Positions 1 to 29,679 of a stretch of DNA of 31,626 bases are shown here, piece after piece. The first letter of the stretch is position 1, and each line of letters opens with the position of its first letter. Position numbers and translations under genes: made by a program. Under the pieces are notes generated by a model, which worked only from the letters and a program-made list of their open reading frames with translations, searched no databases and had not been told where the DNA came from. This DNA is from a virus, in IMG/VR virus record IMGVR_UViG_3300025879_000063, positions 1-31,626 of that record, one strand, 5' to 3'.

Positions 1-3000
1 CATCGTCAAATAAAGCCGCAAATAAAGCTGATTGTAAACTAGAGAATATTATGTTTTGTACCGCTGTATAATATATTATTTTAGAAACATTAGTTTTAAC
101 GTCTCCACGTCTGTTTTTAAGATCCAGGATAGCTTTTTTAGTTAATCTCATGTATTGCATAGGGGTGTTTGCGAAAGCTAATATAATACGTCCTAATGGG
201 CTTGCTTGTTGTTGAGATATTCTATCTGGTCTTGACGACTGCTGTGTTTCTTCTGCAACTTCTTGAAAATCTAAAAATGCTTTACTTTCCGCTTCTTTTT
301 GAGATAATCCTTCTTTAATATAACTATCTATTCTGTTTCTATAAAAAGATGCTCCCCCTATTGCGATAGCAAAACTATCCGCTATTTGTGTAGGTAAGAA
401 TCCCATTTTTAATATAGAAGATAATGCTGCTTTAGCTTTATTTGTCGATGTTTCTGCTGCGCTAGCAATGTCATCCGCATTTACATCTGTTTTTAACCCA
501 GATCTTCTTTGTTTTAAGAAATCTGAATTAAATATCATTGCAAAATCACCCCAAAATTGTTTTTGGTTACTAAAAGCTTTAGCTGCTTTTATAGGATTAT
601 TATCTCCCCAGTTTATAAAGTTTGCAATAGATAATGTTTGTAATAAAGCTGATCTTGTATTGAAGAACATAATAGTACCTACAGAATCGTTAACCCAATT
701 CATAAATTGATTAGTTAACTTATTAGATCCGTTAGGTCTATTTCTACCGCTTTTCATTCTGTAAAGCATATCTTTCAACGCTTCTACATAATCTTCTCCA
801 AAAGCTGCTCTAAGTTTATTAATATTATCTTTAGTAAAAACAGCATCTGCATTTTCTTGCCATTGCTGTAAAAATTCTTCTCTTTTTGAAGAGTTAATCA
901 TACCAATAACATCTGTCGTAATAGTTCCAGCTAACCAATTTTTATCAGGCTCAGCATATCCTACCATTAATGCGTTAATCTGCTCTGCAAAGTTTTTAAG
1001 GTCTTCATTATTATTTACTAAATCAACCAACTCCTTAGTGTCATTTTTATCTAACCCTGGTATTTCATAACCTTTTTTATTCCAAAGATAAACTCTTACA
1101 GCTACATCATTTGTAAATCCAGTTTTATTTGTTTTACCAAGACCTTTAGGTACGTTTTTTATGCTCTTTTTTAGTTTTCTAAAAGATTGAATTGTTTGTT
1201 GCTTATAGCTTTCAAAATCCCTAATTCCTTGCGCATAGGGATCAAATAAATTTTCTTTAAACCATTTAGAGTTTTTATTCCCAACTTCGCCTTTACCTAA
1301 TAGCTTATACATTAACCCGCTAAAATCTTCAGCAGACGGAGGTACAAAAAATTTCCATCTACCTTTCTTTTTAGCAAGCATTTTACTTTTAGCTTCAGAT
1401 ATAGTTTTTTTACTGCTTATCTTAGTTGAGTTTTCTATAATTTTATTAAAATTTTTATCTAGTTTTGTGTCAGTTGTTTCTTTAGAGGTTTTAGAAGCTT
1501 GCAATACAGCTTCTCCTATTTTTTCTATACCTTTTTTTGTACCTAAAGAATTTTCTTTTACATTTTTTATTTGATTAAGGTTAGGAAATAATCTAAAGTA
1601 CAAAGTGGCTCCAGATTTTGCTGGACGTATTACGTTTTTTGTTTCAGCATTTAGTGCACTATAAGTATTTGACATTTTACTTTCTTTACCTACAGCATAC
1701 ATTCCATATCCACCTATTTCTATTAAATCAATACCACTATAAAAATCTTCAATTATACTTTGATCAGACATATAAGAAAAATAACCAGCTTTACCTTCGT
1801 TTTTTTCTTTTATTAAGGCCCATATATCACCGCTTTTATTAAAAGCTTTACCTTCTATTGTAGTACTTTGCGGTAATTTTAAATGCCCTGTTTTTGACAC
1901 TGTTATTTTATTGCTGCTATTTTTATTTATTTCATTTATTATATCAAGCAGATTATTTATATATTTTTCATTAGCTTTTATACTACTTATTAAACTTTCT
2001 TTATTTTTTTCGTTAATTTTTTTAGAAATTTTAATATCTTCAAAATTATTTAAAACTATTTTGCCTTTGTCTATTTTAAACAAACTTATAGTAGCACTGC
2101 CTATTTGCGATATTTCATTTAATTTTACTTCTATTTTTATATCTGAGCCATCGGGTCTTGTTATTATTAAATCCCCTTTTTTGCCCGTTATATATTTTAC
2201 TTTGAATTCTTTGCTAATTTTATTTAAAACTTCTTTTAAAGCTATTTCATATTTAAAACCCTTATTAGAAGCCTCAAGGTCCTGCATATACTCTAATATG
2301 CCTTCATGAGTTAATTCTTCTTTTATAGTGTCAATATCATCATTACTAACTTTTTTATTTTTTAAAAATTCTTCAATTTTATTATTATCGAATCCACCTT
2401 CTATCATAAACTTAAACAATTTTTTACGATCGTTTTCGTTTATATTATAATTATCGCTAACAGGAGTAGCTTCTTTGCTAAATTGTAGCTCATAATTATT
2501 AGTAGCTTTATTTATGCTTTTACCATAATCTGTTAAATATTTAGTTATTCTAGGGTCTGTTACTATAATATTATTATCTTTAGTTAAAGGTATTACAGCA
2601 TTAGTCACGTCCTCATATTCAGGATTAAACGCTTCGTCTTTAAAATTTTCTTTTAATATACGTTTTCCGGGTTGCCAATAAATACTTCCAGCAAAAGTAT
2701 ATTTCTTACCATTATAATTATAAACAGTAAAATCTTCTGCTCTTTTATTTATTGTAAGTGTATTATTGCCAAAATTCAAAACATCAACATAAGAGTAAAC
2801 ATCTTTTTTTGGATCATACTTTTGTTTCGAAATTAAAGAATCAACAAGTACAACTTCACCTTCTTCATAAGAGTCGTATATATTTTCAAACACAAACGTA
2901 CCTTCTATTTCAGCAAAACCTCCATTTATTTCTTCTACAAAACTTAAATCTACAGCACTTTCATCAGTATCTATATTGTTGATAAAATTTTGATAATCTT

Positions 3001-6000
3001 CTCTTAATTTATAATTGTTATAGAATTTAGCGTTTTTACCATCTCTTACTGTTTTAGATATAAGTTCTTTATTAGTATTGTACTCCTCGTAGAGTTTACC
3101 CTCAATGTCTCCTCTTTTGTATCCAACAACTTCAGAAGTATTATTTTTTACATCAACACTTACTATTTTCTTTAAACCGCTGCTGTCATTAGTAGACTCA
3201 AGATACGTTAGCTTTTTAGTAGACTTGTCCATTCGGTCCCACCATTGGCCATCAGCCCAAAAAGACAATAATTTATTGTTTTTAAAAGCAATTCTTTTGT
3301 TTTCACCATAGTGTTTCCATAATTTCCAGGTGTTCTCGTTTAAATTACCAGTATTACTATCTCGAGCTGCTAAACACCACGGATTTGCATTTTCACCCCA
3401 GTTAGAATCTATTAGTTTCCTAACATCGGCTTGTGCTTCTTTTGATTCTTCAACACTGTATATAGTTATACCGTCGTTTAACTCTTTTTTATTACTTAAT
3501 GTTTCAACAGTGTCTGGATTTATTGCTTTTATCTTGGGTTTTACGTCATACTTAGCTAATAATTCGTTAGGGTTTTTAAAACTGTACGGGTCTACTTTTT
3601 TTGTTTCACCAGTCTTAATAGCATCAACAACTTTATAACCATCTTCTGGTAATATTAAATAACCATTAGCCATGTAATATAAAGCAAGGTTTTTGTATTT
3701 TGCTTTTTTATTTTCTTTCACATCTAGCTTATCTGCCCATTCAAATAACTGATCTACAGCTTTAGACGGGTTTTCAAGATCAGGTCTTTTCTTTTTTAAA
3801 TGCTTTTCATACCTATCTCTAGACGCTTTAGAAAATTGAATTATAAATAAAGAATCCGCGTAACCTGGAGTATTTAAAGCTTTGTCTACATGCTTTGCTC
3901 GGCTAAATTGTATCTGAGCCGCTCCTGCTCTAATATCTGCTTTTTGCTCACCTGTTAATTCAGCTAGTTCTCTTACTGCAGTATTAGTGGTAATTTGACC
4001 ATACAATCTAATAAGGGCTAATATAGTCTGGGCTCTAGGGTCTTTCCCTGTAATCTTAACTAATGTTTCGTCTTTATTAATACCAAAAGCGGTATAGAAA
4101 TCTTCTTTAGTAATATTTCTTTTGAGATTAAATGGTATTAAACCAGCTCCTTTAGAAGTTCTTTCGCCTTTATCGTAGAACGCTTGCTGTAGTTTTCTTG
4201 GAACACCTACTCCTGTGCCTATCAATTCTTCTCTAGCTGTTTCACCTTCAAGTATTGCGCCTTCAGGTAGCATAGAGATGAACATATCTGCATGCTTTAT
4301 AATCAAGCGTTGCATATGAGGTATTTCTGCTGAAGCTAAATTAGCTGCAGGGGTTGTAACCTTTTTAACAGTAGTTCTCCACCAATCAGCAGTAATCGCA
4401 GGGGCTAAATCTTTCAATTTAGAAAAAGATAACGCACTAAAGTCTTCAGAAACCATATCAGCTATAGCTTCTCCCACAGCTTCCGTATAAGCTTTAGATC
4501 TTTCAGGCCCTAATATTATTCTAGGGTCTACTAACTTTTTCTTTCTATTCTCTTCAGAGCGGATTTCGGTCATTGTTGTTTCCGGGCTGTAATCTGAAGC
4601 AATTTGTATTGTTTCTTTACCTTCAGGACTTAATGCATCTAAGCTTACATTTATTTTTTCTTCAATTCCTAATCTTTTAGCTAAGTCGTTTGCTCTTAAA
4701 TAAGCTCTGTTAACTAAAAATTTTTCAATATCTTGAGCACCATTGTATTCGTTAAGAACCATTGTCTCTATATCTGATCTCATAGAATCTTGAAAATCTT
4801 GTCTAGAAACAGATTTTTTAGCATCCATTGGTATTGGATCGTATAAAGCTTTAGTTCTATTAGTTATTACTTTATCAATAACTGGCTTTAAACTTGTTAA
4901 AACTTTTTGTTCTAACCTTGTTTGTTTACCCCCCTTGATAGGTTCTTTACCAAATTTAGCTGCAATAGCTGCATTCTCTTCAGCTAATTGTTTTATTGTA
5001 GTTATATCATTAGTAATCTCGGTTGTCTGTTCAGGTGATAATGATTTTGAAAACGCTACATCCTCTGTTAATCCAGCATCTGAAAGATCTACATTTTCTA
5101 AAGCAGCTGCAGCCTTTTCGGTTAATTTACCTTGATCCGCGCTTTCGTCAAACTCTTTAATAAAATTATATACATCTTTACCAGATTCAAATCCTATATT
5201 AGTATATCCTATTGGTTTAAAAACACCTACAATAGCATCGCCTATTTTTTCAAAAAGTGTTTTATCATAGTTAATTTGCTTTTTACGTAAAGCATCAGAA
5301 AACACATTTACATATTCTGTATTATACTTTTTACCAGTATAACCTCTTGATTTCATTTCAGCATCAACAAATCTTCTTTGAGAAGACGTCATTGCTTTTC
5401 TAAATTGATTAACAATTTTACCTTGCTTTTTAGCGTCACCAACAAGTTTATTAAGTATTGGATGCAAAACTTCGTGCATACCCGCATTAATAGAACCCGT
5501 TTTTCTAGCTATATCTCTGTCTATAACTATATCATTGCCAATAACAAAAGCGGACACTTCAAATCCTTTGTTTTTATTATCAAAATAAGATTTTCTATTC
5601 TTTTCGCTTACTTTATCGCTATTCATTAAGTCTTCTACTTCTTTAGAACTCTTAACGTCTATATTTAACCCTTTTTCAGAAGCAATAGTTTCAGCAGATG
5701 CAATATTTTTTTCAAGCTCCATGTCAATTAAGCTTTGCCTAACTGTATCGTATTCAGCTTTAAATCCTGAAGAAGCAGCTTCATATTCAGCGTTAGATAT
5801 ATCGCCTCTTCTTAATTTTTTATTTAATTCTGTTATTTTATAAGCTGCAGCGTCGGCTAAATCAGTAAGGCTCTCTATTTCGCTTATTTGCTTGTTATTT
5901 AAGCTATTATATATTTCGTTCCCTTTTACTACAGAGTCAGCAATATTAGATTCTTTTTTATTTATTTCAATTTGTATTCCTTCTTTAACACTTTTATCTT

Positions 6001-7258
6001 TAGATAAATTATATTGTTTTCTTAAATCCGATAATTCATTTATATTATTATAAATTTTATCTCCATCTACAACATTTCTGATTGTATTCATGCTTTTTGC
6101 AGAATAAGAACCAGCTACCATGCCTCCGCCACCAATAAATCCTTGAAGACCTGCTTCTAACCCCTCCTGACTAGTGACAGCGTCTACAACTGTTTTAAAT
6201 ATTTTTGATTCTTTATCTGTACCGGCCACGCTACCTAACTCAGTATTAACTTGGTCAGTAGCATGTTGTAATATCTCTGTAGTAAATTCTGTAGTTCCCA
6301 CTGAAAACATTCGCATAGCAGATCTAGCCCCTTTATTATATATTAGTTTTTCAGCAAGGTATTTACTACCCATACCTATTAAACCTGTAGATCCTGTTCC
6401 TTTTATAGCTCCTTTAGTTCCTTTAGCAACAGTTCCTAGTCCAATAAATTCTAATGCTGTAGAAATAACTCCCATACCTACAGGTATTGCATTGTCCGCT
6501 TCTCCGGATTTTAATAATTCATCAAAGCTAACTCCTAAGTTTTCAGCTTTTAATTTATTATACTCTACAAAGTTTTCAGCTGCGTAGTCCATGAAAAACC
6601 CCGTACCCAACGTACCTGCTCCGTAAATAATACTACCAAGCATAGAAGTTATAGCATTTACACCACCCGCAAAAGCACCTCCAATATCTCCGTTTTTCGC
6701 ACTTTCTATTATACCAAGTGTTTCTTTAGTTTCAAGTTGTTCTTTCTTAAATTTATCAATAGATTCTAAAGTGCTTTTAGTTCCCATACCTCCAGACATC
6801 CAAGAATCTTCACCTTGTTCTTTAACAAATTGATCTACCTTGTCTTGCCCAAATATTCCAGCGTATACAGAATTAGTAGCTATATCTAAAGCAGATCTTG
6901 CTCCACCTCCTTCTTCTTCGTTTGTATCAAACCAAAATTCAAATACATCTCCAACTTGTTCACCTAAATTAGAGAAAGAATTTTTAATTGACTGCCAAGC
7001 CGATAAAGATTCTCCCGATTGTGATCCCATATCTTTTACTGACTCCGCAGTTGGATCCGCACTTGCAGAGTCTTGTGTCTTTACTGGTATACTAAACTGA
7101 GTTTTAAATTCATCAAAAGACTTAGTGTAGTCTCCCACTTCATTTAAGGCTGTATATAATTTTTTAGCTTTTTCAGGATTGCCAAATTGAATCTTAAAAT
7201 CTTCAAATGTTTTAGTGTATTTACCGTCGTTATATAGTTGATTATATAATTCTTCCAT
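1..7258 (-). CDS. Giant multidomain virion/ejection protein (large polyvalent protein), 3' end outside the window
   Basis: An open frame of at least 2,419 codons runs from an ATG at 7258 to the left edge with no stop; I read it codon by codon. Seen in order: two motif copies at residues 4-26 and 34-56; glycine-rich hydrophobic segments near 200-222, 258-280 and 364-390; HEVLH at 595-599; a Trp-dense stretch 1287-1340 (seven Trp); a PD-(D/E)xK-like core with E1671, D1696 and E1710-x-K1712; and, after about residue 2180, a region with NRPNGSNKL, FANTPMQYMRLTKKA and IIYYTAVQNIIFYSL that I recognise as like the LPD38 domain of large polyvalent proteins. It follows the two internal-protein genes, 4 bases after the 468-residue one, a position held by T7 gp16-like ejection proteins or crAss-like cargo proteins. 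No RNA polymerase DxDxD-type motif was noticed. The frame is certain; the role as injected cargo is inferred. Confidence 0.85.
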   Translation of the reverse strand, partial: MEELYNQLYNDGKYTKTFEDFKIQFGNPEKAKKLYTALNEVGDYTKSFDEFKTQFSIPVKTQDSASADPTAESVKDMGSQSGESLSAWQSIKNSFSNLGEQVGDVFEFWFDTNEEEGGGARSALDIATNSVYAGIFGQDKVDQFVKEQGEDSWMSGGMGTKSTLESIDKFKKEQLETKETLGIIESAKNGDIGGAFAGGVNAITSMLGSIIYGAGTLGTGFFMDYAAENFVEYNKLKAENLGVSFDELLKSGEADNAIPVGMGVISTALEFIGLGTVAKGTKGAIKGTGSTGLIGMGSKYLAEKLIYNKGARSAMRMFSVGTTEFTTEILQHATDQVNTELGSVAGTDKESKIFKTVVDAVTSQEGLEAGLQGFIGGGGMVAGSYSAKSMNTIRNVVDGDKIYNNINELSDLRKQYNLSKDKSVKEGIQIEINKKESNIADSVVKGNEIYNSLNNKQISEIESLTDLADAAAYKITELNKKLRRGDISNAEYEAASSGFKAEYDTVRQSLIDMELEKNIASAETIASEKGLNIDVKSSKEVEDLMNSDKVSEKNRKSYFDNKNKGFEVSAFVIGNDIVIDRDIARKTGSINAGMHEVLHPILNKLVGDAKKQGKIVNQFRKAMTSSQRRFVDAEMKSRGYTGKKYNTEYVNVFSDALRKKQINYDKTLFEKIGDAIVGVFKPIGYTNIGFESGKDVYNFIKEFDESADQGKLTEKAAAALENVDLSDAGLTEDVAFSKSLSPEQTTEITNDITTIKQLAEENAAIAAKFGKEPIKGGKQTRLEQKVLTSLKPVIDKVITNRTKALYDPIPMDAKKSVSRQDFQDSMRSDIETMVLNEYNGAQDIEKFLVNRAYLRANDLAKRLGIEEKINVSLDALSPEGKETIQIASDYSPETTMTEIRSEENRKKKLVDPRIILGPERSKAYTEAVGEAIADMVSEDFSALSFSKLKDLAPAITADWWRTTVKKVTTPAANLASAEIPHMQRLIIKHADMFISMLPEGAILEGETAREELIGTGVGVPRKLQQAFYDKGERTSKGAGLIPFNLKRNITKEDFYTAFGINKDETLVKITGKDPRAQTILALIRLYGQITTNTAVRELAELTGEQKADIRAGAAQIQFSRAKHVDKALNTPGYADSLFIIQFSKASRDRYEKHLKKKRPDLENPSKAVDQLFEWADKLDVKENKKAKYKNLALYYMANGYLILPEDGYKVVDAIKTGETKKVDPYSFKNPNELLAKYDVKPKIKAINPDTVETLSNKKELNDGITIYSVEESKEAQADVRKLIDSNWGENANPWCLAARDSNTGNLNENTWKLWKHYGENKRIAFKNNKLLSFWADGQWWDRMDKSTKKLTYLESTNDSSGLKKIVSVDVKNNTSEVVGYKRGDIEGKLYEEYNTNKELISKTVRDGKNAKFYNNYKLREDYQNFINNIDTDESAVDLSFVEEINGGFAEIEGTFVFENIYDSYEEGEVVLVDSLISKQKYDPKKDVYSYVDVLNFGNNTLTINKRAEDFTVYNYNGKKYTFAGSIYWQPGKRILKENFKDEAFNPEYEDVTNAVIPLTKDNNIIVTDPRITKYLTDYGKSINKATNNYELQFSKEATPVSDNYNINENDRKKLFKFMIEGGFDNNKIEEFLKNKKVSNDDIDTIKEELTHEGILEYMQDLEASNKGFKYEIALKEVLNKISKEFKVKYITGKKGDLIITRPDGSDIKIEVKLNEISQIGSATISLFKIDKGKIVLNNFEDIKISKKINEKNKESLISSIKANEKYINNLLDIINEINKNSSNKITVSKTGHLKLPQSTTIEGKAFNKSGDIWALIKEKNEGKAGYFSYMSDQSIIEDFYSGIDLIEIGGYGMYAVGKESKMSNTYSALNAETKNVIRPAKSGATLYFRLFPNLNQIKNVKENSLGTKKGIEKIGEAVLQASKTSKETTDTKLDKNFNKIIENSTKISSKKTISEAKSKMLAKKKGRWKFFVPPSAEDFSGLMYKLLGKGEVGNKNSKWFKENLFDPYAQGIRDFESYKQQTIQSFRKLKKSIKNVPKGLGKTNKTGFTNDVAVRVYLWNKKGYEIPGLDKNDTKELVDLVNNNEDLKNFAEQINALMVGYAEPDKNWLAGTITTDVIGMINSSKREEFLQQWQENADAVFTKDNINKLRAAFGEDYVEALKDMLYRMKSGRNRPNGSNKLTNQFMNWVNDSVGTIMFFNTRSALLQTLSIANFINWGDNNPIKAAKAFSNQKQFWGDFAMIFNSDFLKQRRSGLKTDVNADDIASAAETSTNKAKAALSSILKMGFLPTQIADSFAIAIGGASFYRNRIDSYIKEGLSQKEAESKAFLDFQEVAEETQQSSRPDRISQQQASPLGRIILAFANTPMQYMRLTKKAILDLKNRRGDVKTNVSKIIYYTAVQNIIFSSLQSALFAALFDD

Positions 7259-9304: not shown

Positions 9305-9646
9305 TTATTTGCTACTATCAAACACCTCAGAACCAATTGAAAAAATTTCAGCATACTCTGTTGAGTCATTTCTAAATTGTAATCTAGCAAAATAGCCTAA
9401 TAGAGATCCTGTGTTTTGAGTATTGTCTTTTGAAAACAATATAAAACTAGAATCAGTAGGTCTTTCTTGTGAAGGTGCAATTTCACATATCATAGTATTA
9501 GTATTTTGATCAATGCTAAGTACTTTACCTATCTTTTGTATTTCGTCTGATTTGTAAGAATTATTAGAATTTGTAAAGTAAGTTATATCTCCAACCTGAA
9601 CAGATGTATTAATAGGCTGTAAAAATTTTAATGTTATTTGATCCAT
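9305..9646 (-). CDS. Conserved small beta-rich virion-associated protein, 113 aa
   Basis: A short protein of alternating hydrophobic residues suggesting beta structure, beginning DQITLKFLQPINTSVQVGD and ending with the pattern LGYFARLQFRNDSTEYAEIFSIGSEVFDSSK in outline. I recall similar LGYxxEVxFxNxSTExAExFxxxSEVxxSSK endings in small proteins of marine phages, where they sit among tail genes; I do not know a demonstrated function. It starts 7 bases after the stabilisation gene stop and precedes the internal proteins by 32 bases, so it is probably part of the tail or its distal plug. No signal peptide or cysteine pair is seen. Confidence 0.55.
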   Translation of the reverse strand: MDQITLKFLQPINTSVQVGDITYFTNSNNSYKSDEIQKIGKVLSIDQNTNTMICEIAPSQERPTDSSFILFSKDNTQNTGSLLGYFARLQFRNDSTEYAEIFSIGSEVFDSSK

Positions 9647-9653
9647 AATTTTT

Positions 9654-12600
9654 TTATAAGCATTGGTTAATACTAGATATTGTTCCGCCTGACCCGACTG
9701 TAACTATAAAGCTTGAGTTAGCTATACTAGATAAACTATATGTTTGACCGTCTGTTAATCCAGCTGCCATTCTATAAGTACCCGCCGCTAAATCACCTCC
9801 ACTAGTAGTGTCAAGTGTAGCGCCTACTATGACTTGAGAATTATCTATAAAAAGAATTGTTGTAGCTATACCTTCTAAATCATTACAATCGTCCACTGCT
9901 AATACGCTATCATACATAATTTCAGAAGGAGTGCTTATAAAGGAGTCTAAGTCTAATGTATGTGTTATATAATTATCACCTGATGAATTAACAATTATAG
10001 AGCCGGTTACAGTAAACTCCTTATTATCAGGACTGTTTAAACTTTGTGAAATACTTTGTAAAGAATAAGTCCAATCCTCGTCACCTATAACTGGAGATGG
10101 GATAGCAGGCGTAAAAGACGAAGCTCCTATTGTTGCGTACTCAAATATATTCGTGCCAGAGCTTGTTGCTGTAAAAGAAAAATTAATTACAGGTTCTTGT
10201 CCTGGTGCATATTCTGTATTAGCAGTAAAAAGGCGTCTTTCAGGAGATCCAGTTACTGTAAGAGAAGGGTTATTTGTTTCAGCTGTAATTTTTAATCCCA
10301 CTTCTACTTGTTGTTCTATATCTATTGTAATAGAAGCTCCGTCATTAGCAATATTAACGTTTATATCTCCGGTTATTTTTAATTTATAAGGGCTTTTTCC
10401 GTCTTCAATAAAAGGTATAATAATATTTGTTATTTCTGCAATTCCAGTTGAATTCATGGCTACATTAGAAGCGTATATAGCTGAATTTAAATCGGCATCT
10501 AATAATTCAACAGAATATAAAGCTCCAGGGTCTCCAATTAAGTTTAACGTTAAAGCCTCTCCTATTTGATTAGCTACAAAAGTATACCCGCTATTTCCAT
10601 TTAAAGTAAATCCATTTATTAACTGAGTCTCAACAACAATAGGTATTGCGTCTGCTTGTATAACAATTGAATTAGCAGTTATGGTTGCATTAGGGAATGT
10701 ATATGAAACTACAAACTCAACAGCTACTAAGTTTTGATCTACGTCATAAGTTTTATTCACGACCACATTGTAGCTATTTTGATTACCTCTTGCTATTGAT
10801 AATCGGGGTTCTTCAAAGAAATAATATCCATTGTCCGCGGTTACAGTTTTTGTTAATATAACAGAAGTACTATTAAATGCTCCCGCTCCAGCATATACAC
10901 TTATCTCTTGATTAGGTGTACTATTTGTTCCATTAATTTCATATCCGCCTTGAATAAAATATAATTGATCCTGAGCAGTACCTTGTATTTCTAAAGCAAA
11001 ATCTGCATTAGCGCTAGGCATTAATGTATTATCTGCAAACTCAAAGCTAAAGATAACATTATCACCTGATTGAGTGAATGAAGTATTTACTATTTCAATA
11101 GGCGTATTTATTATACTAAAGTCAGAAGCTGATATAGTATACCCTTTACTAGGTGTTATTAATAAAGTTTGTGCGCCAACGTCATTTAAATCTTCTCCAA
11201 CATTAGCACTGAAGTTTATTTCAGAAATAGTATAACTCACAGAAGGATTATTATTAAATACATGAACATTATAAGCACTCACAGGTGGCGCTGTTACAAC
11301 AGAAGCTCTTCCAATACCTTGAACTGAAAATTCTTTTGAATCAATGTTGTTATCAGTATTACTATTAAAATAAGTAGCATCACCTTTTATGTAATTAAAC
11401 CACTTACTTTCTTTATCTAAAAACTGCTTTACATAACCTTCTTGTAAATCTGTTTTTATGTAATTAGTATACCATCCGTTTTTATCTAAAGTTTCTGTTG
11501 TTAAGTCTTGTAGCTGCAATTCTGATACCTCCGCAATATTTAAGCCATCATAATTATTATTGCTATACACATATTTTCTTGATTGACTACCGGTATAATT
11601 TAAGGTTTTATATTTTTTTACAACAGCAGGCATCTCATTAATTAACAATGTAACCGCGCTATCATATTGTGTGCCATAAAGATTATTTTGAGCTACTCCC
11701 GGCACTCTGTGTTCCCAGGCTATACCGTTTTTAAAAGTATAATACCTATCATTTAAAGTTATACCTCCTTCTTCACTAAAATTCTTCCTGCTTTCCCATC
11801 CTTTAACGCTTTCTTTAAAGCTAATTGTAGTCGACGTTGGGTTTGTTATTGTAGTAACATTAGAGTTAATAACGCCGTCTTCAAGCTTACTACTCCACTC
11901 ATTAGATAGTTTGCTTAATGAAACATTATAAGCTCCTTTATCGTCATCAAAACTACCCCAAACAGTGTCTGATTCTTTTAAATTATCAGCAAAAAAGTCA
12001 CTCATGCCATATCTAGAGATTTCCTCAAGTCCATCGTTTGATAATCTAAGAACAACACCTCTGTTTTTGTCTGTGAAATAAACCCTATAACCATAAGAAG
12101 CAAAGCTTTCTGGGTTTTTACTAATTCCAAATTCACCAACATAAGGCACAGCTTGTCCTAGTACATTGTTATTAGAAGTAACATTAGCATTACCATCTGC
12201 ATTAAATAGAGCATCTTTATTAGCTAGTATACGTAAACATTTATCTTCACAAAGAGTTACCAAATTTGTATCTCTAGAATGTAGCTTTTGTATAGAGCTA
12301 TATATAGGATTTAAATCTTTAGTAATATTTTCTCCTTGAATAAATTGATTTAAATCATTAACACCTGATACTGAATTAAATATTTGTGAAAATATTAAAC
12401 CAGTTAACCTACGCTCTTCGTTATAAGGTTCTTTTAAAACAGCAGAAACAATTGGTCCATTATCAATAGTAGTTGCATTAAAGTCATCTCTTATTCTATC
12501 GGATTCAACTCCATTACCAAATGAATAGCAATTAAACCAATCTAAGGTATGAGCCTTACCATATTCAGAAATTGGATATATTTTTGAAGCAGAATGATAT

Positions 12601-15600
12601 ATTTCTAATTCAGCAGATTCTTTTGGTTCTGTTTCAAATATAGCTGGATTTGTTGATGTAAATGTACCACTGTCTGGTATTGCTGATAAAAACTGTATTT
12701 GCGGAGATCCAGGCTGGTTCCACCCTCTAAACGTTCCTGCTGGCGCTGGGAATGACCAACCAGAAGGTCCTTGAAATAAACCAGTTCCATTTGCTGGGTC
12801 TACGGGCTCTACTTTTAAATACCATCTTTTTCTTTTGTTAGATCCATCATTAAACCTACCTGACCCAGTACTTCTTTCGTAATTTCTAAAACGCTCTACA
12901 GGTTCTACAGATTTTATTCTATATATTACTCCATCTGGGTCTTCTTTAAATCTAAATAAGCCGCCTACGCTTTCTAATATATTAACTGCTCTTCTGTATT
13001 CTGTATAGACTGTTTTACCAACCCCAAAATCAGCTCCTTCAGGCCATATACCCGCAAAACCTATTGTTAAATCTTGTCCGCCTATGGTAAATCCACCTCC
13101 TCTGTTTGGTTTACCATATGGAGCATAAGAAACAATCCCATTATCTATAAAGAACCCTTGTTCCCAATTAGATCCTAAAATAGCATCTCTTGATAATCCG
13201 ACATCAGTCCAACCTAAGTTGAAAGCTTGGGCAACAGTATAATTAGTGGAACTATCGCTGTTTAATAAATATTCTTGTAAAGTAGCGTCTCTATATAGTT
13301 TTACAAAAAATCTACCTTCAAATTCTGGCTTATTTGCAAATTCTTTTAAAGAAAACTCAGTTAAAACACCGTCGATAAGATTATTAGAATCATCAAACAT
13401 CCATTTTACATCATCTCCGAATCCATTTTCAATGCTAACTGCATACCAGGCTACTCCTTGTATAGTTACTTCCTCAGTAACTGTTATTTTATAATAATCT
13501 GATATATTTTGATCGTCAAAAAACCTAACTAATCTAGTCTTTGATATAGAAGATGGATCTACAATTGCTTTAGCGGAGTTGTTATCTACATCTTGTTTCT
13601 TAATTCTAAACAACTGGAAATCAGGCTCAGGCGCAGCAGTCGGGTCTATAGCACTAGCTACCTGCCCTAATACAGCAACTGCTTCTTTTAAGAATGTAGG
13701 AGCTTCATTAGATATAGCTATTATTTTGTATTTAGCAGACTCTAATACGGGTTCACTAGAGTCGTGTCGTTTTTTTAATTCTAAAAATGTTTCTTCATCT
13801 ACTTTATTTCTATCGGATGAAGAAAAGCTAATCCAAATATTACCATCAGCTGCATCATACCAGCGGTCCATAGCTAAATTATAATATTCATTAGAAGTTT
13901 CTTTTATATAATATCTAAAACCAGTAAACTCTTTAGGTTTATTACCTTTAGCTTGAACGGTTATATTATTATAATTTAAAGATTCTTTTTTTAATAGTTT
14001 AATCGCAGCAGATTCAGAAGTAAACACAGGCGTTTGACGGCCGTAGTCATCTTGAAAAACAACACCTAATTGATATGTTCTTTGTGTTTTTATTGATTTA
14101 TTAGGAACATTAGGAGAAACCTCTAAATCTGAATTAGGAGAAATTGAAACATTTAAAGAAGGTACTACCTGATTGTTTAATTCATCTATTAAATTAAAAT
14201 TTTGTAAATAATTTCCGTAAACCAATCTGTTACCCGTTATTTCTTGAGCCTTAGCTTTTCGGGGTACATTGTCATATACTCTTAATATTTGATTTGATGG
14301 TAATACAGAAGAAATAATTTCAGATTTAATACTAAATTCATTTGCATTCCATATGCTGCTATTTCTTTTAAAAGTATCAACAACATAGACTGTTTGATTT
14401 CCTGCTTCTTTGTAAAGCAAGTCAACTTCTACAACATCAATAGGAGTATCTAAGTTAGCAAAATTTTTAATAACACATTGCTTCATTTGATTTACCATTC
14501 CTAAATTATAACCTTTTTTAGGTTCGTAATCAAAATCTCCGGGTAAAAACGCTACTTCAGAAAATGTTGAAAAGGAAGAGTAATAACCGTCTTTGTATTT
14601 ATATCTGTAAGCAAATCTAGGAAATTTAAATTCAAAAAAGGGATCTTCCTCTAAAGTTACATTCCATGTTATCTCCTCATCTTGCACAGTTTCTGGTACA
14701 GATAATATAGAAACAAATACAGAAGTTTGCGTTTCACCTTGTGGCACACTTAATACTTCCGCTCTTACAATATATTTTTCAGGAATAGTAGAACCTGATA
14801 ATTCCACGGACCCGTTAAAGGTTAAAACATCACCAACAGAATAAAATGGATAAGGACTTGATAACCAATTTATAGTAAATTTACTACCTATTGGCGCTGC
14901 TATTCTTTCGGGTGGATTATTTATATCATCTATAACAAAGTTTTGCTTTGTTGTACCGCTTATAACAGCAGGATTTCCATTAGCGTCTACAGCTCTAGTC
15001 TTTGATAATTCTAGAACTAATGGGTTTACAGGTGCTTTTTTAATTACAGTTATATCCGATTCTATAAAATCACGAGCTAAATTACTATCTGCTCCATAAA
15101 AAACACTATGAGTTCTAAAATCACTATTTTTATTAGCTTCTTTAAAGTTTTTTACATTAATTACTTTTGGTTCAGTTTGGTTGTCTGTCCAAAATAATAA
15201 ATCTTCAATAATATTTATACCTGTTATTAAATAGTCTTTGCTAAACTTTAATATATTATTAGCGTCTACTAATATAGGTGATACCACTTCTGTTTTTTGA
15301 TCATACTCCGCAATAGCACTTATATTATCGCTAGCTATAAACCAATATATTTTTTCATTAACATCATCTTTTATTTGCCCTATTTTTGATGGGTTTGTTA
15401 ATGAATCAATATAGTTATCTGTCCAAGAAGTGTATACATTTGTGCTAGGGTTTAAACTTCTATAAAATTTAGAAGCATTCCCCGCTATATTTTGTAAAGC
15501 ACCAACATTACTACCGTCAGAAGTAGAGAGTTCTAAATTTATAGCATCTCTATATTCGCCGTTTGGTACTAAACGCTCATCAAGGTCTTTATTCATTTTC

Positions 15601-15632
15601 CCTGATGTAAACGTATGGCTCAATTCTAGCAT
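9654..15632 (-). CDS. Tail stabilisation protein (crAss-like / P22 gp10-like) with long beta-rich C-terminal extension, 1,992 aa
   Basis: The N-terminus carries MNKDLDERLVPNGEYRDA and then NLELSTSDGSNVGALQNIAGN, which I recognise as the signature of the crAss-like tail stabilisation protein. This protein closes the connector and forms the tail hub in short-tailed phages. The first roughly 1,450 residues are the stabilisation body. From about residue 1450 to the end, the sequence becomes low in charge, rich in Thr, Ser, Asn, Val and Ile, and reads as several Ig-like beta modules. The last about 80 residues are bracketed by two Cys (C1916 and C1991), possibly a disulfide. The gene follows the ring protein by 3 bases. 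At 1,992 residues it is longer than I expect for this family; the extra part is a plausible receptor-binding or adhesion tip. The ATG at 15632 puts the signature close to the start. Confidence 0.85.
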   Translation of the reverse strand: MLELSHTFTSGKMNKDLDERLVPNGEYRDAINLELSTSDGSNVGALQNIAGNASKFYRSLNPSTNVYTSWTDNYIDSLTNPSKIGQIKDDVNEKIYWFIASDNISAIAEYDQKTEVVSPILVDANNILKFSKDYLITGINIIEDLLFWTDNQTEPKVINVKNFKEANKNSDFRTHSVFYGADSNLARDFIESDITVIKKAPVNPLVLELSKTRAVDANGNPAVISGTTKQNFVIDDINNPPERIAAPIGSKFTINWLSSPYPFYSVGDVLTFNGSVELSGSTIPEKYIVRAEVLSVPQGETQTSVFVSILSVPETVQDEEITWNVTLEEDPFFEFKFPRFAYRYKYKDGYYSSFSTFSEVAFLPGDFDYEPKKGYNLGMVNQMKQCVIKNFANLDTPIDVVEVDLLYKEAGNQTVYVVDTFKRNSSIWNANEFSIKSEIISSVLPSNQILRVYDNVPRKAKAQEITGNRLVYGNYLQNFNLIDELNNQVVPSLNVSISPNSDLEVSPNVPNKSIKTQRTYQLGVVFQDDYGRQTPVFTSESAAIKLLKKESLNYNNITVQAKGNKPKEFTGFRYYIKETSNEYYNLAMDRWYDAADGNIWISFSSSDRNKVDEETFLELKKRHDSSEPVLESAKYKIIAISNEAPTFLKEAVAVLGQVASAIDPTAAPEPDFQLFRIKKQDVDNNSAKAIVDPSSISKTRLVRFFDDQNISDYYKITVTEEVTIQGVAWYAVSIENGFGDDVKWMFDDSNNLIDGVLTEFSLKEFANKPEFEGRFFVKLYRDATLQEYLLNSDSSTNYTVAQAFNLGWTDVGLSRDAILGSNWEQGFFIDNGIVSYAPYGKPNRGGGFTIGGQDLTIGFAGIWPEGADFGVGKTVYTEYRRAVNILESVGGLFRFKEDPDGVIYRIKSVEPVERFRNYERSTGSGRFNDGSNKRKRWYLKVEPVDPANGTGLFQGPSGWSFPAPAGTFRGWNQPGSPQIQFLSAIPDSGTFTSTNPAIFETEPKESAELEIYHSASKIYPISEYGKAHTLDWFNCYSFGNGVESDRIRDDFNATTIDNGPIVSAVLKEPYNEERRLTGLIFSQIFNSVSGVNDLNQFIQGENITKDLNPIYSSIQKLHSRDTNLVTLCEDKCLRILANKDALFNADGNANVTSNNNVLGQAVPYVGEFGISKNPESFASYGYRVYFTDKNRGVVLRLSNDGLEEISRYGMSDFFADNLKESDTVWGSFDDDKGAYNVSLSKLSNEWSSKLEDGVINSNVTTITNPTSTTISFKESVKGWESRKNFSEEGGITLNDRYYTFKNGIAWEHRVPGVAQNNLYGTQYDSAVTLLINEMPAVVKKYKTLNYTGSQSRKYVYSNNNYDGLNIAEVSELQLQDLTTETLDKNGWYTNYIKTDLQEGYVKQFLDKESKWFNYIKGDATYFNSNTDNNIDSKEFSVQGIGRASVVTAPPVSAYNVHVFNNNPSVSYTISEINFSANVGEDLNDVGAQTLLITPSKGYTISASDFSIINTPIEIVNTSFTQSGDNVIFSFEFADNTLMPSANADFALEIQGTAQDQLYFIQGGYEINGTNSTPNQEISVYAGAGAFNSTSVILTKTVTADNGYYFFEEPRLSIARGNQNSYNVVVNKTYDVDQNLVAVEFVVSYTFPNATITANSIVIQADAIPIVVETQLINGFTLNGNSGYTFVANQIGEALTLNLIGDPGALYSVELLDADLNSAIYASNVAMNSTGIAEITNIIIPFIEDGKSPYKLKITGDINVNIANDGASITIDIEQQVEVGLKITAETNNPSLTVTGSPERRLFTANTEYAPGQEPVINFSFTATSSGTNIFEYATIGASSFTPAIPSPVIGDEDWTYSLQSISQSLNSPDNKEFTVTGSIIVNSSGDNYITHTLDLDSFISTPSEIMYDSVLAVDDCNDLEGIATTILFIDNSQVIVGATLDTTSGGDLAAGTYRMAAGLTDGQTYSLSSIANSSFIVTVGSGGTISSINQCL

Positions 15633-18259: not shown

Positions 18260-19681
18260 TTATACTGAAATCTTTTTCAACAATACAAAGTTATTAGCTC
18301 CTTGTACACATAAACATCTTTCTGATAAGAAGTGAACGTTCATTGCGTCTTCGTCACTTGTGTAGTTTCCACCAACAGATCCAGTAATCCAAGATTTCAT
18401 TTTTCTGTCGTCAGCTTCTGAAGCTCTGTAACGTACATGTAAAAATGGTCTTGAAATGTTCTTACCTAATTGTTGATCATAAACTGTAGAAGTTCCTGCT
18501 GGCACAATAACACCTTCAATATCTCCTACTAATCCACGAGTAGTAGCGTCGTTTAAGTATTTCCAGTCAGTTTTATAGAAGTCGTAAGAACCTCTTCTGA
18601 ATCCAGAGAAACCTAAATTTAAAGCCATATCCTCAGAGTTGTCAAATACTCCATAAGAAGTACCTCCAGCACCATAAGAATTTTGAGCTGCTAACATGTT
18701 ATCAATACCTAAAGCAGAAGCTCTATCTAAGAACATCATGTTTTCTTCAATAGCTCCTTGCTTATCTAATTCTTGTAAGATTAAATCAAAGTCAGCTAAA
18801 CCATTAGTTCCACCAAAATCAGCGTCAGAATATACTAAACCTCTGTTTTCTAAAGCTGAAAATAACCCATCAGATCCAGTAATTTCAGATCCGCCACCTA
18901 AACCAGCAGCTGGAGTAATTGGAGCAGATGCTTTTTCTGCTTCGATCATAGTCATTTCTAATTGATCTTCAAAACGAATTCTTGCTTCGTGCTCAGATTT
19001 TAAATACCATAAGTATCCAGAAGTTCCCGCTTCAGTAGCTACTTCTACCCAACCAATTTGAGCAGTATCAGAACCGTTTACATTGTATTTATCTCTTAAG
19101 ATAATTGGTTTGTTACTAAATTGCTCAAAAGCAGCATCTATTGATGTACCTGCATTAGAAGTACCTTTAGCATATTCAGAACCATATACAAATACTTTAA
19201 CATTACCAGTTCCTGTAACTGTAATAGCACCTGCGTAACCAGCGATTGTTAATGTTGCAACACCCGCAGCAACAGATACAGCGCTAACATATGCTTTTTC
19301 AACAGTTAAACCAGTAGAATCAGCAATAACAATTGTAGCTCCAGGGCCAATAAGGTTTTTAGAAGCTCCAGATGCAGCTGGAATAGTGATAGAAGTTGGA
19401 GATACAACAGTTACGTCGTCATAAGCAATGTGTAATCTTCCTTGTTCAGACCATACAACTTGATCAGAAGCCATTGGCATTTCTGCTCCTACCATACGTA
19501 AAAATCCAGAGATTGTTCTGTTTCCATAACGCTCTACTTCTTTTTCGTATACTTCTGGTAAGAATTGTTGTGTAAAATCTAATTGAGATAATGATAAATA
19601 GTTGTCATTAAATAATGTTTGTGTAGGACGTGGAGTTAAATGAGCTAACGCTCCTGCACTTCCTGTAAATGAACCTGCCAT
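18260..19681 (-). CDS. Major capsid protein, 473 aa
   Basis: The N-terminal phrases YLSLSQLDFTQQFLPEVYEK, RYGNRTISGFLRMVGAEMPM and DQVVWSEQGRLHIAY are, to my recognition, the pattern of crAss-like and related marine phage capsid proteins with the HK97 fold. Residues about 91-168 are a low-charge, Thr/Val/Ala-rich beta stretch that reads as an inserted domain, perhaps surface-exposed. The C-terminal part contains FLHVRYRASEADDRKMKSW, followed by a short segment with two nearby Cys. The length, 473, fits. The gene follows the scaffold-like protein and is the usual partner of the portal upstream. Codon use appears plain, and an A-rich leader without a Shine-Dalgarno sequence precedes the ATG at 19681, as expected for strong Bacteroidota-type initiation. 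Confidence 0.85.
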   Translation of the reverse strand: MAGSFTGSAGALAHLTPRPTQTLFNDNYLSLSQLDFTQQFLPEVYEKEVERYGNRTISGFLRMVGAEMPMASDQVVWSEQGRLHIAYDDVTVVSPTSITIPAASGASKNLIGPGATIVIADSTGLTVEKAYVSAVSVAAGVATLTIAGYAGAITVTGTGNVKVFVYGSEYAKGTSNAGTSIDAAFEQFSNKPIILRDKYNVNGSDTAQIGWVEVATEAGTSGYLWYLKSEHEARIRFEDQLEMTMIEAEKASAPITPAAGLGGGSEITGSDGLFSALENRGLVYSDADFGGTNGLADFDLILQELDKQGAIEENMMFLDRASALGIDNMLAAQNSYGAGGTSYGVFDNSEDMALNLGFSGFRRGSYDFYKTDWKYLNDATTRGLVGDIEGVIVPAGTSTVYDQQLGKNISRPFLHVRYRASEADDRKMKSWITGSVGGNYTSDEDAMNVHFLSERCLCVQGANNFVLLKKISV

Positions 19682-20921: not shown

Positions 20922-23348
20922 TTACTTAGGCTCAAAGGAACCTAAGTTGAAATTACCGCTAAGTATATCATTACCTGATGATTCAAAATTTTTAGGCGGC
21001 AAATTGTTTTGTCTTTGTTCTATTAATTCGCTTTGTTGAGTTGCTTGCAATTCAGTTCTTTTATCTTTACGATCTTCTTTTTCTTTTGTCTCAGATTTTT
21101 TACTTTGAACTTCTATGCCTTTTAATTTCATATTCATTTCAAACTCCATTTGCATTAACTCTTTTTTCAGAGAAGCCTCCTGCATTAATTTTTGTTGATC
21201 TATTTGAGCTTTTGCTTGTTCGAACATAATCTTTTGTTGCGTGATAGCTTCTTGTTTTTGCATTTCAGCCTGAGCGGCTACTTGTTGAGCTTGAGCGTTC
21301 GCTTCTGCTTGAGCTTGTATATTCTGTTGTTGTATTTGCTGATCTCTTATTTGTTTTTCGTTTCTTCTAAGTTTTAGTAATTGATTAGCTAATTTTATAT
21401 TTTTAATTTCTCTTAAATCTATAGCATCAGATAAATCTATTAAACCACTTTGTACAGCTGCTTGAATATTGTTTTCTAAAACCGCTCTTTGTTCTTCATC
21501 AGGCTGTAACTCAATAAATATACCAAAGTCATATAAGTACAAATCACTCATCTCCTCTAAGACGGCTACATTTTGATTCCCTATTTTATGTATAAAAGCT
21601 TCCCTTGTTGGTGAATATTCTAATATATCTGATATTCTAAGCGACAGACCTGCGCATAGGTCAGAAGTTAAAAATAAACTACCGTCTAATATGTGTCTAG
21701 TTGCTGTATTTGAATTTGCAGCAGCTAATTTTTGAACGCCAACTAAAGCTCTAGAATCAGGAGTACTACCGTCTCTTGCTTCGTTTAAACCTGTTACATC
21801 TCTTATCATTTGTAAATAATAGTTGTAGTTAGCAATTAAACTTTGTATTTTTCCACCTCCTGATCCTGTAGATATTTCTTGAATAGGAACTTTTCCTGGG
21901 TTCATATCTCCTTCTTGAGTAAAAGACCTACCTATAACAGAACCTGTTTGGAAAAACATATTTAAGGCTTCTTGCGGATTGTAATTTGTTCCATTACCTA
22001 AATCAACCTCAGCTAAACCATCAGCGTCTAAGTAAACTCCATCTGGAACCATCCTTGACATAACTTGTTGCAGTTTTAAATGGGTTAGTTGTATCATATC
22101 TGCAAAACCTGTTATTCTACTAACAAGAGATTCAATCCTTCCTTTGTACATTCTAGGGGCTACAATACTGTAGTTCATTTTTACTTTTGTATAATCGCTT
22201 TTAGGGCGTATCATATTTTTAGCAAGCTCCCATTTAAGCATTCTGCCTCCTAGTATCTTAACACCTTCATATAAAACTTCTAATGATTGGGACGCTTTTT
22301 CAATACCATACTCTTCATATAATTCTGGTGGTGGATTAAAATCATCATCTTTTGGTATTATCTTCGCTGCTCCTGTAGAAGTTTCTTTAACTTTATAAAC
22401 TTCATTTGTAAAAGTTTTATAGTTAAAATATAAAACCTGTACAGTATTTGAGTCAGTTTCATCGTAATTAGTAATTGATCTATCGTAAAAACCGTTACTT
22501 TGATAGGATTGAGAAGATATTTCTTGTAATTCATCATTTGTTAGCCAAGGAAATTCTTTTTTAAGCTCGTTTAAATGAACTCTTTTTATTTCTCCTACAT
22601 AGTAAATATCTTCAAAGTAAGGTGAGTCAGTGTAAGACCAAACTAAATCAACTGGGTCTACATATTCAATTTTAGCTCCTTCTGATTTATTAAAAGTATT
22701 TTTTACAGCAGCAATACCTATTGTAGTTAAATCGTAATTACACCTTCTTCTAATAAGATTATAATTATTACCTTCTAATAAAACATTTAAAGCTTGCTCT
22801 TCGGCTAACTCAACCTCTTGCTTATAGCTAAGTTGCATATGCAAATCTAACTCTTCTTTATTTTTAGGTAATGTCTCTGGGTCGTTTTCGAATAAGTTGA
22901 TACCAAACTCTTGAGCAGCAAATTCATTTAGCTCTCTTGTTTGCATATCTCTTATTAATGATTCCATATACTTTGTTCTTTTTTCAACCCCATAAGGATC
23001 TTGAGAATAAGCTTTTATGTCAAAAAGTCTTTCAGATATACCGTTTACAACGATATCTACAAACTTAGGTATTATAGGTACAGGTTTCCAATCTAAATTA
23101 AGATATGACAAATCACCGTTTATAGATAATTCATCTTTATATTTTTGTATACCCTGTTCTCCTCTAGCATATAATCTTAAGTTGTGAAATGTGTTTTGGT
23201 TACTTTTAAATCTACCATAACCGTTATCACTACTAAACCACTCGTTTTCAATAGCTCTACCTACAGATGTTCCGTAGTCCATTGACATTTTTTCTTTGTC
23301 ACTTGCTATTTGACTTGGAAAATAATTTGTTATAACAGATTTAGCCAT
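20922..23348 (-). CDS. Portal protein, 808 aa
   Basis: The phrase SYLNLDWKPVPIIPKFVDIV near residue 80 and the following VNGISERLFDIKAYS are patterns I know from crAss-like and related portals. The body includes YVDPVDLVWSYTDSPYFEDI and the later GLNEARDGSTPDSRALVG, in line with the portal wing and stem region. From about residue 660 to 785 the protein is a long Gln/Ala/Lys coiled coil, then a short tail; such tails form the barrel above the portal ring. The gene begins 4 bases after the terminase stop, consistent with coupled translation. Length is normal for the crAss-like type. Confidence 0.85.
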   Translation of the reverse strand: MAKSVITNYFPSQIASDKEKMSMDYGTSVGRAIENEWFSSDNGYGRFKSNQNTFHNLRLYARGEQGIQKYKDELSINGDLSYLNLDWKPVPIIPKFVDIVVNGISERLFDIKAYSQDPYGVEKRTKYMESLIRDMQTRELNEFAAQEFGINLFENDPETLPKNKEELDLHMQLSYKQEVELAEEQALNVLLEGNNYNLIRRRCNYDLTTIGIAAVKNTFNKSEGAKIEYVDPVDLVWSYTDSPYFEDIYYVGEIKRVHLNELKKEFPWLTNDELQEISSQSYQSNGFYDRSITNYDETDSNTVQVLYFNYKTFTNEVYKVKETSTGAAKIIPKDDDFNPPPELYEEYGIEKASQSLEVLYEGVKILGGRMLKWELAKNMIRPKSDYTKVKMNYSIVAPRMYKGRIESLVSRITGFADMIQLTHLKLQQVMSRMVPDGVYLDADGLAEVDLGNGTNYNPQEALNMFFQTGSVIGRSFTQEGDMNPGKVPIQEISTGSGGGKIQSLIANYNYYLQMIRDVTGLNEARDGSTPDSRALVGVQKLAAANSNTATRHILDGSLFLTSDLCAGLSLRISDILEYSPTREAFIHKIGNQNVAVLEEMSDLYLYDFGIFIELQPDEEQRAVLENNIQAAVQSGLIDLSDAIDLREIKNIKLANQLLKLRRNEKQIRDQQIQQQNIQAQAEANAQAQQVAAQAEMQKQEAITQQKIMFEQAKAQIDQQKLMQEASLKKELMQMEFEMNMKLKGIEVQSKKSETKEKEDRKDKRTELQATQQSELIEQRQNNLPPKNFESSGNDILSGNFNLGSFEPK

Positions 23349-25566: not shown

Positions 25567-25841
25567 TATCTAGATCTTTTTTCAGCAAAACCTTTAACTG
25601 TTTTTGTTACAACAGTATCTTTAGGTTTATCATCTAAAGCATTTTGCTCATCATTTATTCTATTTAATATTTCAAAAGCGTCAAATATTGCTAATTTTTT
25701 AGTTGCTGCTGCATTTTTTAATCTATCAGCAGATAAATCATCTTCAGAATCAACAATAGCTTCTTTAGCTACTTTTATTAATTCTTCTACAGCTTTATGT
25801 CCAGCTTGGATTATATTCTTTTTCGTTTCCTTGATATTCAT
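25566..25841 (-). CDS. Putative terminase small subunit, 91 aa
   Basis: A short, mostly helical and acidic protein (two or three helices, for example residues 5-30 and 38-66) with a basic end, KGFAEKRSR. It lies directly upstream of TerL, with its stop overlapping the TerL start, exactly where a small terminase would be. No sequence motif proves this; other small proteins can occupy the position. The start at 25841 makes its first 47 bases overlap the end of the preceding gene out of frame. There is no later Met in the frame, and an A-rich leader precedes this ATG, so I keep this start. Confidence 0.5.
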   Translation of the reverse strand: MNIKETKKNIIQAGHKAVEELIKVAKEAIVDSEDDLSADRLKNAAATKKLAIFDAFEILNRINDEQNALDDKPKDTVVTKTVKGFAEKRSR

Positions 25842-29425: not shown

Positions 29426-29679
29426 TCAACTATAACTATATCCCCTGCGTTTATAACGTGGTAAAAATTATTATTCCATTCAATACCGTGCCCTGCGTGC
29501 TTATCATATCTTATAAAATCCCCTTCTTTAACACCAACTACTTTATCCCCTGCGCTTATAACTTTAGCTCTTAAGTACCTAATGTCGCTATCTTGCTTTT
29601 CTGTCATCTCAATACCTCCAACAACTTTAGGGGCTTCTTTAATCTTTTCTATTACTAAATAATAATTAATTGCTTTCAT
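29422..29679 (-). CDS. groES: GroES co-chaperonin, 85 aa
   Basis: The short protein follows the GroES plan: an N-terminal strand INYYLVIEKIKEAP, the mobile loop with VGGIEMTE where GroES normally has GGIVL, YLRAKVISAGDKVVGVKEGD in place of GEVLAVG and VKVGD, and a final GDIVIVE. It is shorter than the bacterial protein (about 97 residues). GroES caps the GroEL ring so substrates can fold. The hydrophobic tripeptide of the loop, IEM instead of IVL, is unusual. The ATG overlaps the groEL stop in TAATG, so the two are coupled, which is evidence that they work together. Confidence 0.85.
   Translation of the reverse strand: MKAINYYLVIEKIKEAPKVVGGIEMTEKQDSDIRYLRAKVISAGDKVVGVKEGDFIRYDKHAGHGIEWNNNFYHVINAGDIVIVE

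Follow-up and report, generated by a model that had tools for sequence, protein, structure and literature searches.

Polyvalent proteins, as described by Iyer et al. 2017 (PMC5512222; this and the papers below are cited for parts of their text), are large proteins with several domains and are predicted to be injected along with the DNA. A zincin is their commonest domain, processing by the zincin was already proposed there, and host-directed action is a named option for such zincins. In crassviruses, giant cargo proteins are stored in the particle and ejected ahead of the DNA, the large one being RNA polymerase-related (PMC10172136). In the chlorovirus PBCV-1, an algal virus, a restriction-type nuclease is packaged as a separate enzyme and is thought to degrade host DNA early (PMC7019647).

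The window analysed here, 31,626 bases that make up one entire virus record, encodes a giant protein that shares features with each of these systems. Like polyvalent proteins, the giant joins disparate domains in one chain, all predicted: zincin residues, a sigma-region-2-like fold, and an HhaI-like nuclease. Unlike the polyvalent proteins in the parts of PMC5512222 covered here, it has a recurring motif at module borders, a sigma-region-2-like domain, and an HhaI-like nuclease; in the same parts of that text the words "sigma", "linker", and "processing site" are absent and "cleavage site" occurs solely in a reference. As in crassviruses, a muzzle-like protein is encoded in the window; unlike the large crassvirus cargo protein, nothing in the window has a polymerase domain detectable with Pfam. 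Unlike the separate enzymes of PBCV-1, the nuclease is a predicted cassette of one polyprotein, and unlike the HhaI restriction endonuclease (PDB 6uke) it is fused into a giant protein. Self-processing of polyvalent proteins by a zincin is thus a known proposal; new are the cassette polyprotein with a candidate processing site, the sigma-region-2-like domain, and the HhaI-like nuclease. We found no report of the border motif in polyvalent proteins in the literature searched, and no description of a sigma-like domain in such proteins in the open literature searched; a survey of jumbo phages, in the part covered here, mentions phage sigma genes, and not in polyvalent proteins (PMC7824862).

The giant gene occupies positions 2..7258 on the minus strand, the strand of all features of the giant given below. 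It begins with ATG and comprises 2,419 codons (2,419 aa) without a stop, the frame being open at the contig end, which cuts off the C-terminal end; the single unbroken frame that the initial annotation had placed over the left quarter and running past it is thereby confirmed. The frame is not a chance one, because relatives of the giant are encoded at 25 loci (first scan). The closest relative, L007, has 185 residues beyond its last aligned residue (1991 of 2176), so a length of about 2,600 aa is expected for the window giant. Searches with the whole giant gave no Pfam family at E up to 1, a single PHROGs match at E 0.067, and no tblastn match at E 0.001 among 50,697 phage records.

The larger genes follow one another on the minus strand in the order GroEL, GroES-like, terminase, portal, capsid, structural proteins, and then the muzzle-like protein, after which come two small genes, a gene for a 468-aa protein, and the giant. 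Specifically, the terminase large subunit lies at 23353..25566, the portal protein at 20922..23348, a homologue of the gene annotated as major capsid protein in Cellulophaga phage Calle_1 at 18260..19681, and the muzzle-like virion structural protein at 9654..15632 (all minus strand). The last of these scores above the Pfam threshold with the C-terminal domain of the crassvirus muzzle (crAss_MUZ_C, 30.8 bits; cut-off 27) and matches phrog_14478 at E 7.5e-135. A further family, phrog_18548, is spread over two ORFs: its first part matches the muzzle-like protein and its last part the small ORF next to it at 9305-9646, which looks as if one gene had been split in two. The GroES-like and GroEL genes (25795-26388 and 29679-31232) are the phage's own and are annotated likewise in ctfjg026, Panino, and elemoA. 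By similarity of the portal, the nearest phages are Caudoviricetes sp. ctfjg026, Maribacter phage Panino, Flavobacterium elemo phages, and Cellulophaga phages, with identity below 60% for all 87 of the 87 matching records. The virus is one of marine bacteria, probably a short-tailed phage with a host in the Bacteroidota, the host being judged from these named relatives. The giant, encoded at the end of the late genes, is counted here among the "polyvalent" proteins of tailed phages.

Two scans with alignments, covering at least 80 loci each, yielded 158 ORFs and from these at least 120 distinct giants, 109 of them complete and 1,878 to 3,353 aa long, which form the sample used here. Across these 120 giants, exchange affects the middle much more than it affects the ends. 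In particular, 12 of the first 25 loci match the window giant from residue 1 to residues 731-937 at 56-77% identity, and nearly all loci that reach 731-937 match again from about residue 1900. The window's modules A, B, C, and E are found in 30, 30, 6, and 4 of the 120 giants, respectively. Module B (3929..4543, residues 906-1110, alignment A8, 30/120 giants) and module C (3179..3826, residues 1145-1360, alignment A7, 6/120 giants) are assigned no fold, and segment D (2489..3178, residues 1361-1590) occurs in no other giant among the 120 sampled. Module C contains the Trp-dense stretch of the initial annotation, with 7 Trp between about residues 1289 and 1345; it gave no fold match. Modules B and C and the C-terminal part were modelled only within longer stretches, so that the lack of a match says little for them. 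Pfam searches of 44 middles, drawn from 71 giants thinned by similarity, found no family in more than 2 of the 44 at E 0.05.

Other cassettes of the middle were recorded in passing. One of the 44 middles matches Pfam Zeta_toxin (E 8.3e-9) and AAA_33 (E 6.8e-10); the best BFVD match is annotated as a UDP-N-acetylglucosamine kinase. A HAD-like cassette ([WFY]D[FM]D[DG]T) lies in the middle of 39 of the 120 giants (for example L009, L011, and L012). Further PD-(D/E)xK-like cassettes were seen by eye mid-protein in L011, L025, and L068. In 12 of the 120 giants (for example L017-L023) the C-terminal end carries an additional small HExxH module (HE..H..D), which may be a further protease or a tag. 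The giant gene of L004 (10001-17243) is interrupted in frame, and the near-identical genes of L009 and L015 are each one frame.

The ends are better conserved. At the N-terminus, two YTK[TS]F repeats (7085..7258, residues 1-58, alignment A2) correspond to the short repeats noted initially; the YTKSF pattern is present in 16/120 giants and in 0/838 other ORFs of the same loci. Such short N-terminal tags vary among relatives (YTKSF repeats versus FEYNG types; window, L016, L018) and are perhaps sorting signals. The glycine-rich hydrophobic segments of the initial annotation hold as glycine-rich N-terminal stretches but not as hydrophobic ones, no 19-residue Kyte-Doolittle window reaching 1.6; strongly hydrophobic segments occur within the first 600 aa of 17 of the 109 complete giants and not in the window giant. 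The conserved, helical C-terminal part (2..1462) runs from about residue 1933, with 49-86% identity in alignment A1 and 98% identity between the window and L007. A structure model of residues 1220-2419 (mean pLDDT 63.5) matches by fold viral ART-PolyVal-like proteins and the Gundel_1 structural protein in BFVD, with E 2.6e-8 to 3.2e-6 for the ART-PolyVal-like and PolyVal proteins. We infer that these matches belong to the C-terminal part, the BFVD rows giving no aligned ranges. For the proposed LPD38-like character of this part, Pfam gave no match with 12 C-terminal rows (E up to 0.05) and no LPD or PolyVal domain by sequence in the window giant, although the model resembles polyvalent proteins by fold.

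A zincin-like domain follows the N-terminal region, at 5084..5761 (about residues 500-725). The HExxH site claimed initially is present at residues 595-599 (5462..5476), followed by a distal Glu at residue 648 (5315..5317), the presumed third zinc ligand; H595, E596, H599, and E648 are invariant in 13/13 and 30/30 aligned rows. In a model of residues 480-1116 (mean pLDDT 85.6), HExxH and the distal Glu lie on two helices (model residues 113-126 and 163-179) after short strands, the same two-helix placement after short strands that is described for polyvalent zincins in the part of PMC5512222 covered here. Anthrax lethal factor, a zincin also used in that part of the text, is matched weakly by Foldseek (E 0.61), and Pfam ATLF is matched by 1 of 30 zincin rows (E 0.0022). 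The 50 VIA rows listed for the model include no solved zincin, all being taken up by the sigma-like domain. The conserved residues support the prediction of a zincin-type protease domain. Across the sample, the zincin profile is matched by 100/120 giants, another HExxH is present in 13 more complete giants, HExxH stands upstream of the C-terminal part in 105/109 complete giants, and 4 complete and 3 truncated giants of the 120 have no HExxH.

Residues 739-866 (4661..5044) are predicted to form a sigma-70-region-2-like domain. No PDB row reached E 0.001 in Foldseek with either model (480-1116 or 1220-2419), and the sigma match, like the HhaI match below, comes from a second look by VIA at Foldseek's own candidates. 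In VIA, 739-866 aligns best with sigma-E (Z 9.8; 89 residues at rmsd 2.1), and all 50 rows listed are sigma factors or polymerase-complex chains that we presume, partly from chain names, to be sigma, two of them with poor rmsd. The domain exists in three subtypes (30, 28, and 24 giants, together 70/120) that match one another by profile. Profile comparison with 14 sigma factors gave 87.9% (E 3.2e-6) for the subtype of L009 (n9), whose alignment is in register with region 2; values were 70.7% for the pooled set, 45.7% for the subtype of HExxH-less giants, and 0.2% for the window's own subtype. Controls (profiles in reverse, four other modules, and ten windows of the C-terminal part) reached 2.5% or less.

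A reading that must be weighed here is that the sigma likeness reflects a common helical arrangement, with neither kinship nor function behind it. It draws on the low value of the window's own subtype, on the caution that helical folds can reach such VIA Z scores through common arrangement, and on Pfam, where Sigma70_r2 was matched in 0 of 1 records and is absent among the 24 families matched by the 44 middles at E 0.05. Against it stand the sigma or presumed sigma identity of every VIA row listed and the in-register match of the n9 subtype, with the controls at 2.5% or less. Column shuffles in hhalign, which keep composition and not the helical pattern, gave scores of about 130, above the real 35.7, in 1/200 cases in each of two sets and 2/300 in a repeat; the two high scores of the repeat are 5-7-column alignments, the other 298 scoring at most 15.6, and are an artefact. 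We regard this reading as unlikely, though with roughly one part in four of our credence. The domain resembles sigma-70 factors in its predicted region 2 fold and differs from them in Pfam profile, in its fusion to a zincin, and in that no region 4 was identified in the window giant, where module B was searched as part of a longer model; we describe it as sigma-region-2-like in predicted fold rather than classify it as a sigma factor.

The last cassette of the middle, at 1523..2461 (residues 1600-1912), is common to 4 of the 120 giants. The PD-(D/E)xK-like core proposed initially is present as E1671, D1696, and E1710-x-K1712, and these residues together with Q1718 are kept in 4/4 rows. The assignment can be sharpened to an HhaI-like fold: the first VIA row for residues 1658-1920 is HhaI endonuclease (PDB 6uke; Z 9.1, rmsd 3.9, 176 of 258 residues, 14% identity), followed by two SPARDA complexes at 5.4 and others at 4.5 or below. 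The residues and the model support a predicted HhaI-like nuclease domain. The window shows no clear avoidance of the HhaI site (25 GCGC versus 35.0 expected). Fold searches over the modules, which bear on the multi-enzyme reading of the initial annotation, thus returned a known enzyme fold for the nuclease and weak matches for the zincin. Alignments of the zincin, the nuclease, the sigma-like domain, the Trp module, and the C-terminal part, used as profiles against the PDB, returned weak rows only (best E 0.026), which we do not take as relatives.

A short motif, approximately hh[Q/K]FS[K/R], is found preferentially near module borders and seldom elsewhere among the ORFs of these phages; it was first seen as IIQFSK-like strings standing at such borders. 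The window giant contains five candidate processing motifs: VAFSK (relaxed; 5045..5059, residues 734-738) at the zincin/sigma-like border, with 4 of 5 residues in a model stretch below pLDDT 50; IQFSR (strict; 3899..3913, residues 1116-1120) and IQFSK (strict; 3827..3841, residues 1140-1144, conserved at the module start in A7), both outside the models or at their very end; LQFSK (2474..2488, residues 1591-1595), in a model stretch below pLDDT 50; and LQASK (relaxed; 1490..1504, residues 1919-1923) at the border of nuclease cassette and C-terminal part, just before a stretch below pLDDT 50.

Counting supports the enrichment, the motif pattern varying slightly from one count to another. In an unbiased count of repeated 3-mers in the middles, QFS ranks first (27 proteins versus 0.4) and FSK third (51 versus 4.7). 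The pattern [VIL][QK][FYL]S[KRL] occurs 99 times in the middles with the C-terminal border left out, versus 7.3 in shuffles. With a slightly broader pattern, the giants have 197 occurrences in 283,734 aa (shuffles, 42.0) and the 838 other ORFs have 18 in 357,925 aa, below their shuffles (30.8), corresponding to 0.694 per 1,000 aa in the 120 giants versus 0.050 in other ORFs of the same loci. The other ORFs are mechanical six-frame ORFs of at least 150 aa, not checked genes, and were shuffled five times. No such repeat was found in the elemoA giant, which has a zincin, or in the ctfjg026 giant, which has two HExxH.

Motif sites also coincide with sites of module exchange. The middles contain 134 sites, in 74/120 giants, and a homology breakpoint, counted from all ends of BLAST matches, lies within 5 aa of 86 of the 134 (expectation, 44.2; maximum in 500 shifts, 65). 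Identity between the window and L007 changes at the motif at 735: it is 15% over the preceding 40 aa and 82.5% over the 40 aa that begin with the motif. In ten close pairs, hand-picked and without a chance level, one partner (L025) being truncated, 9 of 20 sharp identity transitions lie at most 7 aa from a motif.

This coincidence would be expected if the motif were a linker or a DNA signal guiding module exchange by recombination, with no cutting, and the serine codons at the motif do differ in their shares from background (p 0.0002, for 111 codon sites that fall into 40 downstream groups by single linkage, two groups holding 36 and 19, so that sites are not independent). However, the serine is encoded by both codon families (TCN 46%, AGY 55%, rounded); the DNA is therefore not fixed at the motif, which speaks for selection on the protein. 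That the remaining ORFs of these phages rarely contain the motif, and that giants lacking HExxH lack it too (below), further argues against this reading, which we consider improbable. Within one protein, the residue before F (Q or K) tends to be shared by border and inner sites (0.867 versus 0.507; 0/2,000 shuffles, 32 giants; these and the codon counts are from the 71 thinned giants), an agreement to which shared ancestry contributes.

Comparison of giants with and without HExxH connects the motif to the zincin. For this comparison we used 112 giants (the 109 complete ones, the window, L179, and L180), of which five, L066, L068, L074, L084, and L179, have no HExxH upstream of the C-terminal part. 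The strict motif is present anywhere in 85/107 giants with HExxH and in 0/5 without, a difference with a hypergeometric chance of 6e-4, computed by hand with kinship ignored; L074 has one match to a looser form of the motif. On a FastTree phylogeny of the C-terminal part (from 25 residues after its start), 5 changes are required to explain the HExxH trait. Of 5 independent pairs, 4 to 5 show the motif anywhere following HExxH and none shows the reverse (sign test, 0.0625 to 0.125; five pairs permit no lower p, and with recombination five pairs may not equal five losses). For the C-terminal border motif only, the contrast is weak (58/107 versus 0/5; 2.5/5 pairs, median p 0.5). L180, 48% identical to the HExxH-less L084 in the region searched, has HExxH and motif-like strings.

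From this co-occurrence the motif would be the zincin's candidate processing site, and self-processing our first reading of the zincin, although action on host proteins is also compatible. The alternative is that the motif is cut by another protease, of host or phage, or serves as a docking site for packaging, and that the zincin acts on host proteins. Such host-directed action is the option named by Iyer et al. (PMC5512222, in the part covered), and some zincin-bearing giants lack the motif (22/107 giants with HExxH lack its strict form); the joint absence of motif and HExxH in 5/5 giants argues the other way, and we rate this alternative marginally below the recombination reading, as improbable. 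Of the initial proposal that a protease is delivered to the host, the protease domain is supported (zincin-type, with H, E, H, and distal E in 30/30 rows); the comparative evidence points first to self-processing.

The placement of the giant in the virion, proposed initially from gene position, is inferred by analogy from synteny, the "structural" annotations of named relatives, and a mass spectrometry note. Giants in comparable slots, after or close to a gene of about 450-550 aa, are annotated as structural in elemoA, Gundel_1, phi38:1, and phi18:3, and for the giant of Cellulophaga phage phi18:3 (gp123) the record cites experimental MS/MS proteomics. The zincin profile finds a match in the elemoA giant (E 3.7e-8), and the C-terminal profile in the Gundel_1 giant (gp074; E 7e-11). 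Family profiles gave nothing convincing against the giants of phi18:3, phi38:1, and Panino, and HExxH is absent from those of phi18:3 and phi38:1. That the giant is instead an unpackaged, late intracellular protein is very unlikely, given its late-operon slot adjoining structural genes and its homologous regions in the structurally annotated elemoA and Gundel_1 giants, even though the phi18:3 giant, the one with MS/MS support, has no detectable sequence similarity to the window giant.

Taken together, we think it more probable than not that the giant is a packaged, injected, zincin-cut polyprotein of a short-tailed phage. The alignments, counts, and models establish the modular anatomy, the conserved catalytic residues, the placement of the motif, its absence without HExxH, and the predicted folds of two modules, and from these we infer packaging of this giant, cleavage and its sites, injection, and effector activities. 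Support is strongest from the motif counts and the HhaI fold and weakest from the five HExxH-less cases and the zincin fold. In the proposed mechanism, the better conserved N- and C-terminal parts would serve packaging and delivery, and the middle would be a string of separate effectors (zincin, sigma-region-2-like domain, module B, module C, segment D, and HhaI-like nuclease), with short linkers at several borders that carry hh[Q/K]FS[K/R] or a close variant. The chain would be packed and then ejected with the DNA, and the zincin would cut at the linker motifs, in the particle or after entry, freeing the effectors. Once free, the nuclease may attack the DNA of the host or of competitors, while host RNA polymerase may be engaged by the sigma-like domain. 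The fullest form of this proposal, in which a family of tailed phages injects a self-cleaving polyprotein, cuts at [Q/K]FS[K/R] free a sigma-like factor and a nuclease, and the same sites double as exchange borders, we put forward only tentatively.

A concrete candidate site, many relatives, and natural HExxH-less comparisons make self-processing of such a protein open to peptide mapping. The cassettes would constitute a store of undescribed effectors, because no Pfam family recurs beyond two of the middles searched. If the sigma-like domain works, the phage would bring a promoter-opening factor into the cell instead of a polymerase.
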